Source of the DNA: a virus
IMG/VR virus record: IMGVR_UViG_2162886015_000007
Coordinates: 1 to 25,972 of that record
Direction: 5' to 3' (one strand)
DNA length: 25,972 nt
The notes beneath the pieces were generated by a model that was given only the letters and a program-made list of their open reading frames with translations, did not search any database and had not been told where the DNA came from. Both the position numbers and the translations under genes were made by a program. Positions 2,341 to 18,719 of the stretch are shown piece by piece (the first letter of the stretch is position 1; the number at the start of each line of letters is the position of its first letter).

Positions 2341-2409
2341 TCAAACGTTCTGCCCGTTGCCGCCGGTCCCGGACGCCACCTTGATGCCCTTGGTGATCGT
2401 GTCGATTAC
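2341..2409 (-). pseudogene. 3'-end fragment of a host-like gene (cyclophilin-like tail?)
   Basis: Directly downstream of the integrase stop, in another frame, the minus strand reads VIDTITKGIKVASG, then TGGNGQNV and a TGA at 2341-2343. The phrase resembles the C-terminus of cyclophilin-type peptidyl-prolyl isomerases (DVIDTI..), but the match is short and made by eye. The frame overlaps the integrase stop by a few bases, and the reading to its right is integrase. That is what remains when an element integrates inside the 3' end of a gene and the element's own copy of the core restores the gene at the far end. The parent gene would be rebuilt at attR, outside this window. Confidence 0.4.
2341..2409. 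other. Candidate attL core
   Basis: The junction between integrase sequence and the orphan 3' coding fragment falls at or just left of 2409. Tyrosine integrases often use the 3' end of a gene as target, with int next to the site, as here. The exact core cannot be set without attR. Confidence 0.4.
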
Positions 2410-3782
2410 AAATCGCCTAGCATCGGAAGGCCGCTGAACTGCGGAAACCCCTTAAGAGAAGGGGGTATTGGGAGAGGATTGGGAAACGGTGGCGTCCAAA
2501 GTCCTCGGGCCACGACTTCCTTCTCCCACACGCCTTGCAGGTACTCGACGATACGCTCCTCCATCGTGATCGTCACACGCGTGTAGATGCCCTCGACGCC
2601 GACCATCTCGTGCCCCATCCGGGCCTCCTTGGCCACCGTGGGAATGTCCGCCCCCGGCTCGTCCAGAAGCTCCCGGTGCCAATGCCGCAGCCGGTACAGA
2701 TCCTGCCCGGCCATCTCCGGCACCGCCGGGATCGCCGGCCGAACATGCCGCAGGTACTGCGCCCTTGGCTTGCGTTCCTCGGCGCCGTCCCGGATCGGCC
2801 TCCAGTAGTTCTGCGTGAACTCGGTCTTCAGGAGATGGCCACCGGTCATCGCCGGGAACGTCCACGGCGAAGCGTGGGACGCCAGGAGCGCCTCGTGGAT
2901 CTCGTGAAGGAATGGCGGCATCACCAATGTTCTGTGCGAGTCGTACTTCGGACCGGCCAGCGTCGGTTTGTGGTCCACGTAGTACGCCTGATGCTGAACC
3001 CTCAGGGCGTGCATCCCCTTGTACCGCTTCGTCGCGTCCCGCCCGCGACCCGGGACCGGGTCGGCCGCGGGCCAGTTGGGCGAGGAGAAGCCGCGTTGCA
3101 TGCCGACCATTTCGCCGGGCGGCCTCATGCCGGTGAACGCGAGCGTCCAGATATAGGCCCAACCTGTGTAGCCCCACACGTGGAACGCGTTGACGGCTAG
3201 CTGGTAGACGGCTTGGAACGGCAGTTCGTGCTTGATGCGCCTCGTCTGCTTCTTCTTGTACCGGCCTCGGCGCCGCTGCTCGATGATGGGCGACTCGCTG
3301 CGCATCTTGTACTTGAGGACCGCGTCCTCCATCAGCATCTTGAAGACGCCGCGGACTGCACTCGCGTAGTTGTCGGAGTACTGGTCGTTGACACGCCGCT
3401 TCCAGGCGTCGTACTCGATCGGCGTGATGTCGCCGACGGGCCGCTGAGCCCAGTACGGCTCGATGACGGACTTGATGATGGAGCGGTACGTCTTCGTCGA
3501 GTTGGGCCGGATGTCGGCAGCGTCGAACCACAGCCACACGTAATCCGACATCAGGGTCGACGAGTTCGTCTTGGGGATGCCCTTGCCGTGCCGGGCCTCA
3601 TACTCGCGGTCCAGGCCGTAGTTGTATGCCTCGTCCTCGTCCTCGAACGGGACGCCGGCCTTGGGCCCTGATGCGGATTCGTACCGCTTCCGCCGCGTCG
3701 GCTTGCCGTCCGAACCGACGGCGTACTCGCCGCCCCACCACTTCACGCGGATGCTGTTCCCGCGCGTCTCCACATAAGGCAT
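2406..3782 (-). CDS. int: Tyrosine-family site-specific integrase
   Basis: The product is 458 aa. It has an N-terminal arm-binding-like segment (about 1-60, with GGEY and an RKRYES patch), a SAM-like core-binding domain (about 72-165) and a catalytic domain (about 185-425). Catalytic positions visible are R220 in FTGMRPPGE, K279 in GPKYDSHRT, R366 in LYRLRHWH, H391 in MGHEMVG and the nucleophile Y400 in GIYTRV. The usual His of the HxxR box is Tyr here (Y363). A Pro-rich tail of about 30 residues follows (PPFPNPLPIPP). The start at 3782 is the ATG giving MPYVETRG. The gene reads toward the candidate attL and its stop touches it. It should drive integration and, with a directionality factor, excision. 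Confidence 0.95.
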   Translation of the reverse strand: MPYVETRGNSIRVKWWGGEYAVGSDGKPTRRKRYESASGPKAGVPFEDEDEAYNYGLDREYEARHGKGIPKTNSSTLMSDYVWLWFDAADIRPNSTKTYRSIIKSVIEPYWAQRPVGDITPIEYDAWKRRVNDQYSDNYASAVRGVFKMLMEDAVLKYKMRSESPIIEQRRRGRYKKKQTRRIKHELPFQAVYQLAVNAFHVWGYTGWAYIWTLAFTGMRPPGEMVGMQRGFSSPNWPAADPVPGRGRDATKRYKGMHALRVQHQAYYVDHKPTLAGPKYDSHRTLVMPPFLHEIHEALLASHASPWTFPAMTGGHLLKTEFTQNYWRPIRDGAEERKPRAQYLRHVRPAIPAVPEMAGQDLYRLRHWHRELLDEPGADIPTVAKEARMGHEMVGVEGIYTRVTITMEERIVEYLQGVWEKEVVARGLWTPPFPNPLPIPPSLKGFPQFSGLPMLGDL

Positions 3783-4217: not shown

Positions 4218-4634
4218 TCAGACCACGCCCCGTTTGTGCAGCTCATCCAGTACACGCCGGTTCAGGTCCAGGATCTCGTCAGCCGTCAGATCTCCCTTGA
4301 AGCCGATGGCTGCGGAGTTGACCGCGTCGCCGACCTGACGCTTCAGGTCCTCCTTGGGGATGACCGCAATGCCGCCATCGGCTGCCGCCGGCGAGGCCTC
4401 GGAGATGACGGGCTCGCCGCCTTCGAGGACGCGACTGCAGCTGCCGGGCGCCCATTGGAGGGCGCGCTCGATGCCGGTGTAGGAGGTTGCCCGGACGTCC
4501 TCGCGGGCTGCCTCGACCTTTTTCCAGGTGTCCTTGCTCATGCCGGCGAGCCGTGCGGCCGGTTCGATGCCCAGCCCGAGCTCCAGGCGACGCTGCCGCA
4601 CGAGGTGCGCGAGGCGTCCGAGGTCATTACCCAT
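4218..4634 (-). CDS. XRE-like helix-turn-helix regulator
   Basis: The product is 138 aa. Residues about 2-65 read as a Cro/CI-type domain: LAHLVRQRRLELGLGIEPAA, then AGMSKDTWKKVEAA as turn and recognition helix. The C-terminal half (about 90-138) is acidic and helical with LTADEILDLNRRVLDEL and may dimerise. The ATG at 4634 has AGGA 8 nt upstream; an ATG at 4643 is in frame but sits too close to that site. It diverges from the HTH gene at 4834 across a repeat-rich spacer, the arrangement of a phage immunity or switch region. Which of the two proteins keeps lysogeny cannot be told from sequence. Confidence 0.7.
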   Translation of the reverse strand: MGNDLGRLAHLVRQRRLELGLGIEPAARLAGMSKDTWKKVEAAREDVRATSYTGIERALQWAPGSCSRVLEGGEPVISEASPAAADGGIAVIPKEDLKRQVGDAVNSAAIGFKGDLTADEILDLNRRVLDELHKRGVV

Positions 4635-4798
4635 GGGGCACATCCTGCCAGGACCCGCTAGGACCAGCTAGGAGTGGGGTCCAGCCAGGCCGGAACGCGA
4701 CGGGTCAGTAGCGCAAAGTGATTGCTCCTTCGCTTGCCGGTGAAGCGCTACCTAGAACCTCACGCTAAGTCGATCCGCTAAAACACGCTAAGAGGCGG

Positions 4799-4833: not shown

Positions 4834-5088
4834 ATGGAACAACCCCCTCCCACCTACCAGGTGAAAGGGGCGGAAATCCGCAAGCTCCGCATGCAGGCAG
4901 GGCTGAGCACCGACGAGCTGGCCAAGGCAGCACTCATCAGCAGGCGCTACCTCAACCACCTCGAAAACGGATACCGCACCCGCATGAGACCCGGTCCCTA
5001 CCAGCGGCTCCGCACTGCGCTCGGCCTGCCGGCCGACTCCGAACACATCCTCCAGACACCCTCGCCCAACCCCCCTGAGAAGAGGTGA
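4834..5088 (+). CDS. Small XRE-family HTH regulator
   Basis: The product is 84 aa, nearly all a Cro/CI-type fold: IRKLRMQAGLSTDELAKAA (helices 1-2), then LISRRYLNHLENGYRTRM with the YLNHLENG pattern of the recognition helix, and a Pro-rich tail. It has no effector domain, so it resembles a Cro-like or Rep-like small regulator. The ATG lacks a ribosome binding site and sits just after the palindrome at 4818-4832, which suggests autoregulation. The next gene starts 1 bp after its stop. Confidence 0.8.
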   Translation: MEQPPPTYQVKGAEIRKLRMQAGLSTDELAKAALISRRYLNHLENGYRTRMRPGPYQRLRTALGLPADSEHILQTPSPNPPEKR

Positions 5089-13814: not shown

Positions 13815-14227
13815 GCACCCGCGCCGCCATCGAGGAACTCCTGCACGCCGGGTACAGCGACCGGGCGATCGCCCGCCAGGTCCACGTCCGCACCGACAGC
13901 ATCGCTGGAATCCGAGCCCGACTCGAACTCCCCGTGCACAAGCCCGGACCCACGCGCTCCAGCTCGCACGAAGACCTGTTCTGGCGGCGAGCCGTACCCA
14001 CCGCCGCTGGCCACCTGATCTGGCCGTCCAGCACCATCTTCGTCCGCATCGGCAGCGAAGGCCCCCGGCAGTCCGCCTACCGGATCGCCTTCCGCATCCG
14101 CTACCAGCGCGAGCCCGCCGGCTTCGTCCTGCCCGGCTGCGGCATCGCCCGGTGCGTCCACCCGCAGCACGTCGAGGACCAGCAGATGCGCGACAGCTAC
14201 AACGCGATCTTCGGGAGGGCCGCATGA
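13811..14227 (+). CDS. HTH plus HNH-like (degenerate) protein
   Basis: The product is 138 aa. Residues about 3-40 are a resolvase-type helix-turn-helix (GYSDRAIARQVHVRTDSIAG). The C-terminal part reads PGCGIARCVHPQHVEDQQ, which matches the treble-clef core of HNH nucleases in actinophages (C-x4-C-V-x-P-x-H). The usual HH or DH pair before it is not evident, so it may be catalytically degenerate. It overlaps the methyltransferase start by 4 bp. Confidence 0.65.
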   Translation: MSTRAAIEELLHAGYSDRAIARQVHVRTDSIAGIRARLELPVHKPGPTRSSSHEDLFWRRAVPTAAGHLIWPSSTIFVRIGSEGPRQSAYRIAFRIRYQREPAGFVLPGCGIARCVHPQHVEDQQMRDSYNAIFGRAA

Positions 14228-15171
14228 TCGGCACCGAACTCTTCGCCGGCCCCGGCGGATTGGGCCTCGCCGCCGAGCAGGCAGGCATCCGCACCATCGG
14301 CATCGAGTGGGACGCCAACGCCGTCGCCACCCGGGTCGCCGCCGGGCTGGCCACCGTCCACGGCGACGTCACCAAGTACGGGCCCGCCGACATCCCCAGC
14401 CTGATCCTCACCGGCGGCCCGCCCTGCCAGACGTTCACGGTCGCCGGCAACGGCGAAGGCCGCGCCGAGCTGGAACGGATCATCGACGCCGTCAAGCGGA
14501 TGGGCGGCCGACAGCACGTCGACCCGCACGAGTTCGCCGACCCGCGCACCGCGTTGGTCCTCGAACCGCTCCGCTGGGCGCTCGCCGACTACGAGACCAG
14601 CTACAACGCGATCGTCCTGGAGCAGGTCCCGCAGGTACTGCCCGTGTGGGAGGCCTACGCCGACGTGCTCCGCGAGGAGGGCTACTCGGTAGCCACCGGG
14701 GTGCTGGCCGCCGAGCAGTACGGGCTGCCGCAGACCCGCAAGCGGGCAGTGCTGATCGCCCGACTCGTCGGCGACGCGGTGCTCCCGGCGCCCACGCACC
14801 GGCCGTACCGCAAGGGCGTCCCGCGGTCCGACGGCGACCCGGGCCTGCTGCCGTGGGTGTCGATGGGGGAGGCCCTCGACCGGCCGCAACCGTTCACCGT
14901 CGTCTCCAACTACGGGACCGGCGGGGATCCCAAGAAGCGTGGGCGCAGGACGAGTTCGGAGCCGGCGGCCACGGTCACCGGGAAGATCAACCGCAATCGG
15001 ATCGTCGCTGCCGACGGCCGGGAGCTGCCGCGGTTCACCCATGCCGAAGCTGGCCGACTGCAGGGGTTCCCCGCGGACTGGCCGTGGAGCGGCAACGAGA
15101 TCGCTCAACAGGTTGGTAATGCCTGCCCGGTGCCGCTTGGGGTCGCGCTGATCAAGGCGGCGATCCAGTGA
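14224..15171 (+). CDS. C5-cytosine DNA methyltransferase
   Basis: The product is 315 aa, short but complete for the family. Motif I is LFAGPGGLGLA, motif IV is GGPPCQTFT with catalytic C68, motif VI is LEQVPQVLP (the usual ENV is EQV here), motif VIII is QYGLPQTRKR and motif X is QQVGNACPVPLG near the end. The target-recognition region (about 185-260) is brief. It would methylate the C5 of cytosine in a short site using S-adenosylmethionine. No cognate restriction gene is adjacent, so it looks like an orphan phage enzyme that could protect phage DNA or alter regulation. Confidence 0.9.
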   Translation: MIGTELFAGPGGLGLAAEQAGIRTIGIEWDANAVATRVAAGLATVHGDVTKYGPADIPSLILTGGPPCQTFTVAGNGEGRAELERIIDAVKRMGGRQHVDPHEFADPRTALVLEPLRWALADYETSYNAIVLEQVPQVLPVWEAYADVLREEGYSVATGVLAAEQYGLPQTRKRAVLIARLVGDAVLPAPTHRPYRKGVPRSDGDPGLLPWVSMGEALDRPQPFTVVSNYGTGGDPKKRGRRTSSEPAATVTGKINRNRIVAADGRELPRFTHAEAGRLQGFPADWPWSGNEIAQQVGNACPVPLGVALIKAAIQ

Positions 15172-15368: not shown

Positions 15369-15386
15369 GCCCCGCCGAGGCGGGGC
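15369..15386. terminator. Bidirectional hairpin between convergent genes
   Basis: GCCCCGC and GCGGGGC form a 7-bp stem around a CGAG tetraloop in the gap between the convergent genes ending at 15353 and 15409. That position suits a shared terminator. Confidence 0.6.
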
Positions 15387-15408: not shown

Positions 15409-15726
15409 TCAGGTCGAGTCGAGAGCGCGGCGCTTGGCGATAGCCAGCGACTCGCCGAGGATGCGCGCCTTGTGCTTCGCGTCGGGCGTGTCCCCGCCTT
15501 CGAGCTCCTCCACGTAATCACGCAGCTCGCGGAGTGTGGCGTAGTCCTCGTAGCTGACGATCACGGCTGCTTCCTTGCCGCGATTGATGAGCACGGTCGG
15601 CTCGCCACCGAAGCGCGCACGGGCGATGACCTCGCCAAGGACGTTCCGGGCCTCGGCGATCTGGTTCCGGTGGACGGTCGGCCGCTCGCTCATGAGCAGA
15701 TCGTAACTGATAGCCGCGATGGTCAT
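15409..15726 (-). CDS. Phd/YefM-family antitoxin, orphan
   Basis: The product is 105 aa. The Phd/YefM N-terminal DNA-binding fold is visible: VHRNQIAEARNVLGEVIARA, GEPTVLINRGKEAAVIVSYEDYATL. The C-terminal part is helical and charged, where this family binds its toxin. Its ATG has AAGGAGAC upstream. No RelE, YoeB or Doc toxin gene lies on either side. It diverges from the replication module, and its promoter region holds a palindrome that also lies over a forward -10-like element. Family members repress their own promoters, so it may also set replication-gene expression. Confidence 0.85.
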   Translation of the reverse strand: MTIAAISYDLLMSERPTVHRNQIAEARNVLGEVIARARFGGEPTVLINRGKEAAVIVSYEDYATLRELRDYVEELEGGDTPDAKHKARILGESLAIAKRRALDST

Positions 15727-15755
15727 CTTAGTCTCCTTAGCTGTGACGCCTTTCT

Positions 15756-15770
15756 TAGCTATGATAGCTA
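15756..15770. promoter_or_regulatory. Palindromic operator with overlapping divergent -10 elements
   Basis: TAGCTATGATAGCTA is an inverted repeat with 6-bp arms around TGA. Forward it contains TATGAT (15760-15765). On the minus strand it contains TATCAT (15766-15761) with a -35-like TTCAAC at 15788-15783, spaced 16 bp. CTTAGC hexamers lie at 15736 and 15754. A protein bound here could control both the antitoxin and the replication genes. Confidence 0.5.
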
Positions 15771-15857
15771 CGAGGGGGAGGGGTTGAACACACCGCCCTA
15801 AGCGCCCTGGTTCCGCGCGCCCAAATCCCCTTCAGCTCCTCTCTGAAAGAAGTTCCG

Positions 15858-16751
15858 ATGGCCGAGAAGGACAAGCGCACCTACGTCAAGGTGCACGACG
15901 GTCTGCCGGACCACCCGAAGATCATCGAGGCGGGTGGCGAAGCCGGCTGGCTGTACATCTGCGGACTCGCCTACGCCTCCCGGCAGCTCACCGACGGCGT
16001 GATCTCCAAGCGCCTTGTCCGCCGGCTCACCGACGGAAGCAATCCCGAAGCAAGTGCTTCGGCACTGGTTCGCGTTGGCTTGTGGCACGACGGCGAACAC
16101 GACTGCCTCAGCTGCCCTCTCGCGGCACCCGACGCCTACGTCATCCACGACTACCTCGACCACCAGCGTTCCGCTTCCGAGGTTGCAGACCTTCGGGCAA
16201 AGCGAGCAGCAGCAGGTCAGAGAGGTGGTAAGCGGTCCGGAGAGTCCCGTCGAGCCGCTTCCACCGCCGAAGCAAACGACGAAGCACTTGCTTCGGATTT
16301 GGTGAAGCAACCGGGAAGCAAAAACGAACCAGAGACAGAGACAGAGACAGAAGTAAAAGAAAAGAACAGTCGAACTTCTGCGAAGTCCTCGGAAGCCCCT
16401 CCCCGCGAGGACGTTGAGCAGGTCTGCAAGCACCTCGCCACCGTGATCGAGAACGGCGGCGACAAGCGCCCTCCCGTCACCGCCAAGTGGCGCACCGACA
16501 TGCGGCGCCTCTTCGACATCGACGGCATCACCCCAGATCAGGCCATGACCGCCATCGACTGGGCCCACGCCAACAGCTTCTGGCAGGCGCACATCCTCAG
16601 CCCGGCCAAGCTCCGCGACAAATACCCGACCCTCCGCCGCCAAGCCGCTACTGAACAGGCGAAGCGCGCACCGCAGGGTCCGCCGACAGCGCCCCGCGAC
16701 ACCAGCTCCATGACCGAAGAGGAGAAGAAGAGTGCCCTCCAGTTCCGCTGA
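15858..16751 (+). CDS. Phage replication initiator-like protein
   Basis: The product is 297 aa. Residues about 5-100 resemble the N-terminal winged helix of phage replisome organisers (TYVKVHDGLPDHPKIIEAGG, LYICGLAYASRQLTDGVISK, LVRVGLWHDGEHDC, VIHDYLDHQRS). A low-complexity linker follows (about 130-180, including ETETETEVKEK), then a C-terminal helical domain (about 190-270) like those that bind the loader or helicase. It is followed directly by DnaC-like and DnaB-like genes, which supports the call. GAAGCA repeats within its coding sequence may be the origin it binds. GAAAGAAG precedes the ATG. Confidence 0.75.
   Translation: MAEKDKRTYVKVHDGLPDHPKIIEAGGEAGWLYICGLAYASRQLTDGVISKRLVRRLTDGSNPEASASALVRVGLWHDGEHDCLSCPLAAPDAYVIHDYLDHQRSASEVADLRAKRAAAGQRGGKRSGESRRAASTAEANDEALASDLVKQPGSKNEPETETETEVKEKNSRTSAKSSEAPPREDVEQVCKHLATVIENGGDKRPPVTAKWRTDMRRLFDIDGITPDQAMTAIDWAHANSFWQAHILSPAKLRDKYPTLRRQAATEQAKRAPQGPPTAPRDTSSMTEEEKKSALQFR
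16036..16321. repeat. GAAGCA iteron-like array (candidate origin)
   Basis: GAAGCA occurs at 16036, 16047, 16269, 16281, 16304 and 16315, with inverted copies (TGCTTC) at 16055 and 16289 that build two palindromes (16045-16062 and 16280-16295). Steps in the second cluster are 12, 23 and 11 bp. The copies lie in different reading frames (GAA-GCA, AAG-CA, and split GGA-AGC), so protein coding does not explain them. A purine-rich, comparatively A-rich stretch (16316-16375) follows, as next to iterons in lambda-type origins. Confidence 0.5.
16330..16353 (+). repeat. Short CAGAGA tandem repeat
   Basis: The hexamer CAGAGA or its permutation repeats about four times and encodes the alternating Glu-Thr linker of the initiator-like protein. 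It adjoins the iteron-like array. Confidence 0.7.
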
Positions 16752-17355
16752 CGAGCTCAGCCCCCGCGAGTCATGGCTTCGGGACCGCAGCCACCATGCG
16801 CTCGAACGGTTCGACAACCGCACCCCGCTCATCTACCGCCAGCCCATCGACCTTCACGACGACGTCAGCAGGTGGATCGCCGGCTGGGGTGGAACCAGCC
16901 TGTTCCTCACCGGCTCCATCGGCGTCGGCAAGACGCACACCGCCTGGCAGACCTGCCGCCGCTGGCTCGAAGCCTGGTACGCCCCGACCCGCCCGTGGAC
17001 TGCGGGCGGCCCGGACCTCCAGACGTACCGGTCGACGGCCCTGTTCGATGCGCTGCGTCCGGACGGCCCGGACGAGGTGCGGCGCACGCTGGTCAAGGAA
17101 CTCCAGGAGTGCAGCCTGCTGTTCATCGACGACCTCGCCGCAGCCAAGGCGTCCGTGTGGACGCAGGAGCGGCTGTTCGAGATCTTCGACGAGCGGTACA
17201 TCAACCGCCGTCCCGTGATCATCACGTGTGACGTGCTGCCCGGCGAACTGACCGAGGTCACTGGACCGCGGGTCGCCTCCCGGCTCGCCGAGATGTGCGG
17301 CGACAGCATCGTCCTCCTCGAAGGCAACGACCGCCGCAAGGGGGTGGCGGCGTGA
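16732..17355 (+). CDS. DnaC-like AAA+ helicase loader
   Basis: The product is 207 aa from a GTG with AGGAGAAGAAGA upstream, overlapping the initiator gene by 20 bp. Walker A is GSIGVGKTH (61-69), Walker B is LLFIDDL (129-135), and PRVASRLAEM carries the conserved Arg of the DnaC/IstB group. It lacks the long N-terminal domain of E. coli DnaC. It should load the DnaB-like helicase encoded just after it at the phage origin. Confidence 0.85.
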   Translation: MPSSSADELSPRESWLRDRSHHALERFDNRTPLIYRQPIDLHDDVSRWIAGWGGTSLFLTGSIGVGKTHTAWQTCRRWLEAWYAPTRPWTAGGPDLQTYRSTALFDALRPDGPDEVRRTLVKELQECSLLFIDDLAAAKASVWTQERLFEIFDERYINRRPVIITCDVLPGELTEVTGPRVASRLAEMCGDSIVLLEGNDRRKGVAA

Positions 17356-18719
17356 CCACCGAGATCGACGTCTGGGGTCCGGACGACGCGGCACCCGCCC
17401 CCGGCGCGTCCGCCGCCGAAGCCGAACGGATCGTCGCGGCGTCCGTCATGGCCCGGCCCGAGCTGATCGACGAACTCGCCGGAGAGTTCGACCCCGCCGA
17501 CATCCAGAACGATGCGCTCCGCTGGGTGTGGCACGCCGTCGACGAGATCCGCGAAGTCCTCACCAAGGGTGAGATCCGCTGGCAGGCCGTCCATCGGCAA
17601 CTCCAGGCATGGCACGCCAGCGGCTACCTGCCGATCCGCCCCCTCGACCTGAGCCAGCTTGCCCACCTGTACGACTCGGCCCAGTCCTCCTACCAGGCCG
17701 CCTCCTACTACGCCGAGCAGGTCACCGAGGCGGCCGTCGCCCGCCGGCTCCTCGCTCTCGGCGCCGACATCAGCATCCGCGGCCGGTCCGCGGCCTTCGA
17801 CCCCGCCACCGACATCTCCGCCATCCAGGACGCCCTCGACGACATCGTCCGCAACCGCGACACCAGCACCCCCAAGTTGCTTCGCGACGTCATCGGCGGC
17901 GCCCTCAAGCGGTCCGTCACCGAACCCACCAACGAGGAGCGCATTCCCACCGGCTTCATCGACCTCGATGCACTGTTCAGCGGCGGCTTCAAGGCCGGCC
18001 AGCTGGTCGTCATCGCGGCTCGGCCGGCCATGGGGAAATCCACCCTCGGCCTTGGCCTCGCCCGAGCAGCCGCGATCCACAACAAGATTCCGACCCTCTT
18101 CGAATCCCTGGAGATGGGCGAGGAAGAACTCACGGACAACATCCTCTCGGCCGAGGCGCGCGTCCCCCTGCACCACATCAAGGGCGGCATCGTCGACGAC
18201 GCCGGAGTCGCCCGCGAGGCCCGCGCCATGCCCCGCATCAACGCGGCGCCGCTCTACCTCAACGACTCCGCCGGCCTGTCGCTCCCGACGCTCCGCGGCC
18301 GGATCCGCCACCTGGTCCGCACCGCCGGACTCCGCCTCGTGATCGTCGACTACCTGCAGCTCATGGACGCGCCCAAGGCCGAGAACCGGCAGGCCGAAGT
18401 GTCCAAGCTGACCCGCGGACTCAAGCTCATGGCCAAGGAGTTCGGGATCACCCTGATCATCCTGGCCCAGCTCAACCGCGGCCCCGAGCAGCGCACCGAC
18501 AAGAAACCGCTCGTCTCCGACCTGCGCGAATCCGGCGCCATCGAGCAGGACGCCGACATCGTCATCCTGCTGCACCGCGCGGACGCCTACGAGAAGGAAA
18601 GCCCCCGGGCGGGCGAGGCGGACTTCATCGTCGGCAAGCACCGGGCCGGCCCGACAGCAACGATCACCACCGCATTCCAGGGCCACTACGCCCAGTTCAT
18701 CGACATGGCCCAGACCTGA
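17352..18719 (+). CDS. DnaB-family replicative helicase
   Basis: The product is 455 aa from a GTG in a GTGA overlap; the frame is open further upstream but only inside the loader gene. Residues about 20-125 are the DnaB N-terminal helical domain (ERIVAASVMARPELID, ALRWVWHAVDEI). The C-terminal RecA-like domain (about 190-455) has Walker A ARPAMGKST (223-231), SLEMGEEEL (252-260), Walker B LVIVDYLQLM (329-338), ILAQLNRG, and DLRESGAIEQDAD with HRADAY. It would unwind the fork 5'-3' as a hexamer. The host has its own DnaB, so this is the phage copy. Confidence 0.95.
   Translation: MTTEIDVWGPDDAAPAPGASAAEAERIVAASVMARPELIDELAGEFDPADIQNDALRWVWHAVDEIREVLTKGEIRWQAVHRQLQAWHASGYLPIRPLDLSQLAHLYDSAQSSYQAASYYAEQVTEAAVARRLLALGADISIRGRSAAFDPATDISAIQDALDDIVRNRDTSTPKLLRDVIGGALKRSVTEPTNEERIPTGFIDLDALFSGGFKAGQLVVIAARPAMGKSTLGLGLARAAAIHNKIPTLFESLEMGEEELTDNILSAEARVPLHHIKGGIVDDAGVAREARAMPRINAAPLYLNDSAGLSLPTLRGRIRHLVRTAGLRLVIVDYLQLMDAPKAENRQAEVSKLTRGLKLMAKEFGITLIILAQLNRGPEQRTDKKPLVSDLRESGAIEQDADIVILLHRADAYEKESPRAGEADFIVGKHRAGPTATITTAFQGHYAQFIDMAQT

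Follow-up and report, generated by a model that had tools for sequence, protein, structure and literature searches.

An antitoxin is commonly taken to be half of a toxin-antitoxin pair, and orphans are either dismissed as decay or assigned a role in counter-defence. The described systems that bear on the locus reported here differ in how they use such proteins. YefM (yefM-yoeB) of E. coli has an operator whose L palindrome, with a TGTACA core, lies over the -10 element (PMC4803016), and for YefM of S. lividans/coelicolor (yefM/yoeBsl) the divergent promoter region contains a palindrome that covers a putative -10 (PMC3303803). Phd, from the phd-doc pair of phage P1, represses from its operator through an N-terminal dimeric DNA-binding domain (PMC4803016). 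In the PfiA/PfiT system of Pf4, a filamentous phage of Pseudomonas, both PA0727, the replication initiation gene, and the excisionase gene are expressed more strongly once the toxin gene is deleted (PMC7264888); PfiA does not bind its operator on its own and needs PfiT, and no similar palindrome was found elsewhere in Pf4 (PMC7264888, PMC13048266). Orphan antitoxins have also been reported in the leading regions of plasmids, where they were interpreted as anti-defence factors (PMC11541004). Within the open-access literature, our search met no account in which lone Phd/YefM proteins regulate phage replication.

We analysed the complete IMG/VR record IMGVR_UViG_2162886015_000007 (25,972 bases, hereafter the window), whose gene content looks like the early region of a temperate phage of actinobacteria; no structural genes were identified in this record. 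A codon-usage gene call places the genes from 4834 to 25770 in a plus-strand array with a single exception, an antitoxin gene that is divergent from the initiator, helicase loader and DnaB genes and separated from them by 131 bp. The features of the window are as follows.

2406-3782, minus strand: tyrosine-type integrase.
4218-4643, minus strand, and 4834-5088, plus strand: pair of helix-turn-helix regulators adjoining the integrase.
15369-15386: GC-rich hairpin (predicted fold, no T-run) separating the antitoxin from the convergent upstream operon.
15409-15726, minus strand: lone Phd/YefM-family antitoxin of 105 amino acids, ATG at 15726, led by a Shine-Dalgarno sequence.
15409-15693, minus strand: shorter form of the antitoxin, from Met12, homologous to the leaderless start in most relatives.
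15733-15738, minus strand: antitoxin Shine-Dalgarno sequence AAGGAG.
15736-15742, minus strand: second half-site AGCTAAG, overlapping the Shine-Dalgarno sequence; a half-site repeat found in other leadered relatives.
15756-15770: perfect palindrome TAGCTATGATAGCTA (TAGCTAT-G-ATAGCTA), the putative operator.
15760-15765, plus strand: -10-like hexamer TATGAT, facing the initiator, inside the palindrome.
15761-15766, minus strand: -10-like hexamer TATCAT, facing the antitoxin.
15804-15822, plus strand: conserved 19-bp leader block GCCCTGGTTCCGCGCGCCC, between the promoter and the initiator start.
15858-16751, plus strand: replication initiator (PHROG 22834, 118.5 bits; 2447, 82.3 bits; 2514, 74.7 bits).
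16732-17355, plus strand: DnaC-like helicase loader (PHROG 50, 98.3 bits).
17352-18719, plus strand: DnaB-like replicative helicase (PF03796, 278.5 bits).

The helix-turn-helix pair next to the integrase looks like the main lysogeny switch. By the integrase end, the gene at 1358-1954 has weak similarity to Mrr-like restriction endonuclease domains and is possibly host flank or cargo. A C5 cytosine methyltransferase gene (14224-15171) directly precedes the antitoxin gene, and methylases are frequent neighbours among relatives too. The hairpin at 15369-15386 is probably a bidirectional terminator, and the corresponding convergent junctions of relatives are enriched in hairpins (mean z -0.99, versus -0.06 in random windows). 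With a hairpin at this junction, the upstream operon would seem to end here, leaving the replication genes to depend on their own promoter.

The antitoxin scores 47.1 bits against Pfam PF02604 (PhdYeFM_antitox; cut-off 29.8) and 40.9 bits against TIGR01552 (cut-off 20.8), which places it in the Phd/YefM family. Its structure model (pLDDT 67, pTM 0.39) has YefM, RelB and Phd antitoxins as top PDB matches, none with E below 0.001, and a sequence-profile search of the PDB gave no match. Ahead of the shorter form, a TACGAT hexamer (minus strand, 15705-15700) lies 6 nt from the ATG of Met12, as in the leaderless relatives. Across the phage members, the N-terminal, DNA-binding half is constant and the C-terminal half, which in known Phd/YefM members binds the toxin, varies from ~20 to 60 residues; many phage antitoxins have only ~20 residues beyond the DNA-binding half. 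The longer C-terminal modules are mosaic between the antitoxin clades A, B and C defined below: L230 (B) and L252 (C) agree at 76% over 45 residues, and L195 (A) and L223 (B) at 83% over 35 residues. Modules common to different N-terminal clades indicate domain shuffling within a gene of ~100 codons, and some of them, being conserved across clades, may bind a partner. Whole-gene dN/dS is 0.12-0.36 for pairs among ten clade A genes, with the N-terminal half lower in 8 of 9 pairs. These values show that the gene is under purifying selection and maintained, and the original prediction was therefore wrong to call the antitoxin retired.

The first protein searches returned five Streptomyces genome loci plus one distant match, and 11 viral contigs. 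The close relatives that extend far enough all have the identical layout, although their initiators may be only ~25% identical or not detectably similar. Profile searches extended the set to 73 viral contigs, which fall into three antitoxin clades (A, that of the window, 27; B, 27; C, 19), some of them near-duplicates and all related and found by antitoxin queries, so that the counts given here are not independent events. A large terminase is present in 11 of the 28 records searched (9 of the 11 in clade A), which indicates that the antitoxin is carried by tailed phages. None of the three clade queries had a match in 50,697 deposited phage records, and the control point seems uncharacterised on that account.

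The gene upstream of the antitoxin is divergent in all 73 contigs. The upstream proteins form 15 clusters, and most of the 18 that were scanned match PHROG replication initiator families, with four HNH-type or HNH-fused and one DnaB-like; in a small number of clade C loci the upstream gene is a methylase or could not be assigned, and is not an initiator. That initiators of several families stand in this position indicates that initiators are exchanged beside a regulator that is retained. The downstream gene is convergent in 68 of the 69 contigs where one could be called, and thus a toxin cannot share the antitoxin operon there. Among these convergent neighbours are WhiB-family regulators (PF02467) at L210:4257-4502 and L206:4303-4566, with similar-looking genes in several others, and a 61-aa gene at L192:4557-4742 that is HicA-like by eye and has no Pfam match.

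The protein is a member of the Phd/YefM family yet appears not to be part of a toxin-antitoxin system. The window has no toxin gene adjoining it, all other called genes from 4834 to 25770 being on the plus strand, and the type II arrangement of a toxin in the operon of the antitoxin is equally absent from the 68 relatives with a convergent gene; the sole co-directional downstream gene, in L203, has no toxin match. The original prediction of an orphan Phd/YefM antitoxin facing the initiator, loader and helicase genes is borne out in this respect, and the toxin gene next to the antitoxin in relatives that would have spoken against it was found in none of the phages (73/73 divergent, 68/69 convergent downstream). 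It had also been proposed to look for a cognate toxin elsewhere in the element. We rejected such a partner for the phages, as the three main partner families, ParE (PF05016), Fic/Doc (PF02661) and PIN (PF01850), were absent from all 26 phage records scanned, which are up to 113 kb long and may be fragments. The same antitoxin profile also found more distant chromosomal antitoxins in 393 Streptomyces genomes. In at least three of these loci (L171-L173; 42-43% identical over the shared part) a small ParE-like gene lies immediately downstream, and in the two that were scanned this gene matches PF05016. Since chromosomal relatives with ParE exist, the lack of a toxin is specific to the phage branch.

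We then consider the site between the divergent genes. The palindrome had been described at 15756-15770 with a forward TATGAT and a reverse TATCAT, and this is exact. It is the sole site in the window at up to 3 mismatches (expected 0.03). Palindromes of equal score arise in 0-6 of 30 shuffles of the homologous regions and are not rare in 130 bp; given this weak result, and a pattern that is common, mostly by chance, across viral contigs, we dropped the significance of the palindrome by itself. What counts as evidence is instead that relatives conserve it at a constant position. Likewise, a sigma-70 consensus scan of the intergenic interval gave no full promoter and the initiator-facing hexamer has no recognisable -35 element, so that both -10 assignments rest on conservation.

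Each antitoxin clade appears to have its own operator, which co-varies with the antitoxin. In clade A this is ATnATAGCT(AAG), often extended to the full palindrome (13 of the loci L001-L018), and its core ATnATAGCT is present in 23/23 distinct loci. The clade B operator, ATTGTACAA (GAATTGTACAAyGCG), is found in 26/26 distinct loci and the ATCATAGCG type of clade C in 18/18, the latter with TGTACATCATAGCG facing a second TGTACA box. An initiator-facing TAnnnT overlaps the operator in 66 of 67 distinct loci (A 23/23, B 26/26, C 17/18), and in most clade A and B loci it stands 83-109 bp from the predicted initiator start. The core ATAGCTAAG has 20 occurrences in 19 clade A records (1.25 Mb), each at the replication promoter, and a reversed control pattern has none in the same records; the clade B site is present in 17 of 17 records searched. 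The distribution of ATAGCTAAG is what would be expected of a single-target regulator. Thus the locus has a putative palindromic operator over a promoter 5' of its own gene, as is typical of Phd/YefM proteins, and, as for a replication repressor, the site overlaps a replication-gene promoter that is predicted from conservation. The claim that the antitoxin sits on the replication promoter is in this way supported by a conserved initiator-facing -10 overlapping the operator.

It had further been suggested that one bound protein could shut both promoters. For the initiator side this stands, whereas on the antitoxin side it does not appear to hold as a general rule. In 12 of the 30 clade A loci the reverse TATCAT is absent; these loci have a leaderless promoter beside the antitoxin start, and in loci without a leader this promoter lies 6 nt ahead of the start codon. 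Among the clade A loci with a Shine-Dalgarno leader, of which the window is one, 13/13 have an antitoxin-facing TATnAT, versus 5/17 of those without a leader (Fisher p 8.7e-5, ignoring the relatedness of the loci). Splitting the loci by leaderless promoter was tried first against the reverse -10 and was uninformative, as a leaderless-type hexamer occurs in every locus; the Shine-Dalgarno split was used instead. The general rule would be one site over the replication promoter, and a two-promoter role is plausible for the subgroup of the window. In most clade A phages the leaderless promoter of the antitoxin is downstream of the operator, whose effect there could be activation or none.

Between this promoter and the initiator, the block GCCCTGGTTCCGCGCGCCC occurs once in the window; 14 related phage records each contain a single exact copy, and of 393 Streptomyces genomes only 2 have it. 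It stands 36-40 nt ahead of the first start codon of the replication module and, in all clade A and B loci that have it, 38-39 bp from the -10 hexamer. The phages that carry it have different initiators (L138, L139, L140, L141, L147, L150, L152). The block could mark a recombination boundary, belong to the promoter, or serve as an RNA or protein site. It matched no Rfam element or tRNA, a repeated site or iteron does not fit with only one exact copy per phage record, and a binding site for the initiator was set aside because the block is likewise found ahead of a methylase gene and of initiators that belong to different families. In many clade B phages (upstream regions of L207-L233) a different conserved leader, gACAGCCCTCATGGGGGCG, which could form a short hairpin, replaces it. 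In three block-carrying phages, the slot of the antitoxin holds a small non-antitoxin helix-turn-helix gene (L139:1883-2164, L141:7053-7394, L150:4010-4291) with its own GCCAACAT...ATGTTGGC inverted repeat. The encoded proteins are unrelated to the antitoxins, and their helix-turn-helix matches are weak, with Pfam scores below the curated cut-offs. That another DNA-binding protein can stand in for the antitoxin speaks for DNA binding as the function of this gene.

We propose, with a probability of about three in four, that Phd/YefM antitoxins have been co-opted in these phages as dedicated single-target repressors of the replication genes. The comparative evidence makes such a replication switch well supported at the level of sequence, through family membership, orphan state, orientation, operator conservation, the single target, the hexamer overlap, regulator exchange and selection. 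In the window, an antitoxin dimer would bind the 15756-15770 palindrome, probably making a second contact at the half-site 15736-15742, and would cover the -10 of the divergent initiator-loader-helicase promoter. In phages of the window type the same site would also cover the -10 of the antitoxin itself and so limit its level. The hairpin behind the antitoxin would cut off the long upstream early operon, leaving the replication genes dependent on the divergent promoter, and replication would be released when the labile antitoxin is lost or is titrated by a rising copy number. A more tentative extension, which we regard as possible rather than probable, is that actinobacterial phages share an exchangeable replication-switch slot, divergent from any initiator, which has taken up, together with their matching operators, no fewer than three Phd/YefM clades and one helix-turn-helix family. 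The mosaic C-terminal half could then be a replaceable sensor, of a host toxin, a protease or a phage partner, that times the release of replication and gives type-specific replication immunity.

Other explanations account for parts of these observations. The antitoxin might counteract a type II toxin of the host, such as ParE/RelE or Doc, and so keep infection from being aborted, with the operator as leftover autoregulation. Homologous antitoxins are indeed paired with ParE on host chromosomes, and orphan antitoxins of mobile elements have been proposed to act in this way (PMC11541004), but the gene is always at the replication promoter and not anywhere in the genome, and an unrelated helix-turn-helix gene can take its place. 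C-terminal modules of 35-60 residues that are conserved between some members and common to several clades would fit a toxin-binding role; however, this half is swapped or reduced to ~20 residues in many members, and it is the DNA-binding half, with the stronger selection in 8/9 pairs, and the operator that stay constant. Neutralisation of a host toxin, which the original prediction had put forward as an alternative, is for these reasons disfavoured and in our view unlikely.

We think it slightly less likely again that the antitoxin acts as in phage lambda, repressing the replication promoter and activating its own from one site to give a bistable switch between lysogeny and lysis. The leaderless majority of clade A has the operator upstream of the TTGnnn-16-TACnCT promoter of the antitoxin and on the opposite -10, a geometry that fits a repressor able to stimulate itself. 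In the window subgroup, however, the operator contains the TATCAT of the antitoxin and the half-site overlaps its Shine-Dalgarno sequence, which suggests self-repression, and a separate helix-turn-helix pair beside the integrase already looks like the main lysogeny switch. Lastly, a single gene that runs opposite to a long co-directional array and is exchanged with unrelated genes is typical of cargo, and the antitoxin could be a moron, selfish or accidental, that sits where an insertion between genes is tolerated and has an autoregulated promoter of its own, without taking part in replication. Cargo would leave unexplained both the overlap of the operator with the initiator-facing -10 (66/67) at narrow distances (83-109 bp in most of clades A and B) and a position kept across many initiator families, and we consider it very improbable.

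Co-option as a replication repressor would mean that many uncultured and prophage actinobacterial phages appear to use antitoxins to regulate DNA replication as their single target, and to exchange operator and regulator as a unit, and that an 'orphan antitoxin' annotation in a phage is no evidence of a toxin. Compared with known systems, the locus resembles the orphan antitoxins of plasmids in being an antitoxin without a toxin on a mobile element, but these were not presented as replication regulators (PMC11541004). It shares with P1 Phd the protein family and a phage origin; Phd, however, works with the Doc toxin in plasmid addiction, and its known target is phd-doc itself. Like PfiA/PfiT it is phage-borne and, in our proposal, would be tied to expression of a replication initiation gene, whereas Pf4 has a complete toxin-antitoxin pair and the window has an antitoxin alone, with its site on the initiator promoter. 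YefM is paired with the YoeB toxin as co-repressor, in contrast to the phage relatives, which have no adjoining toxin gene, and the window operator TAGCTATGATAGCTA does not contain TGTACA. Nevertheless, the window antitoxin and YefM belong to the same Pfam family and have a palindromic operator over a -10, and the TTGTACAA/TGTACA operators of the clade B and C phages closely resemble that of YefM.
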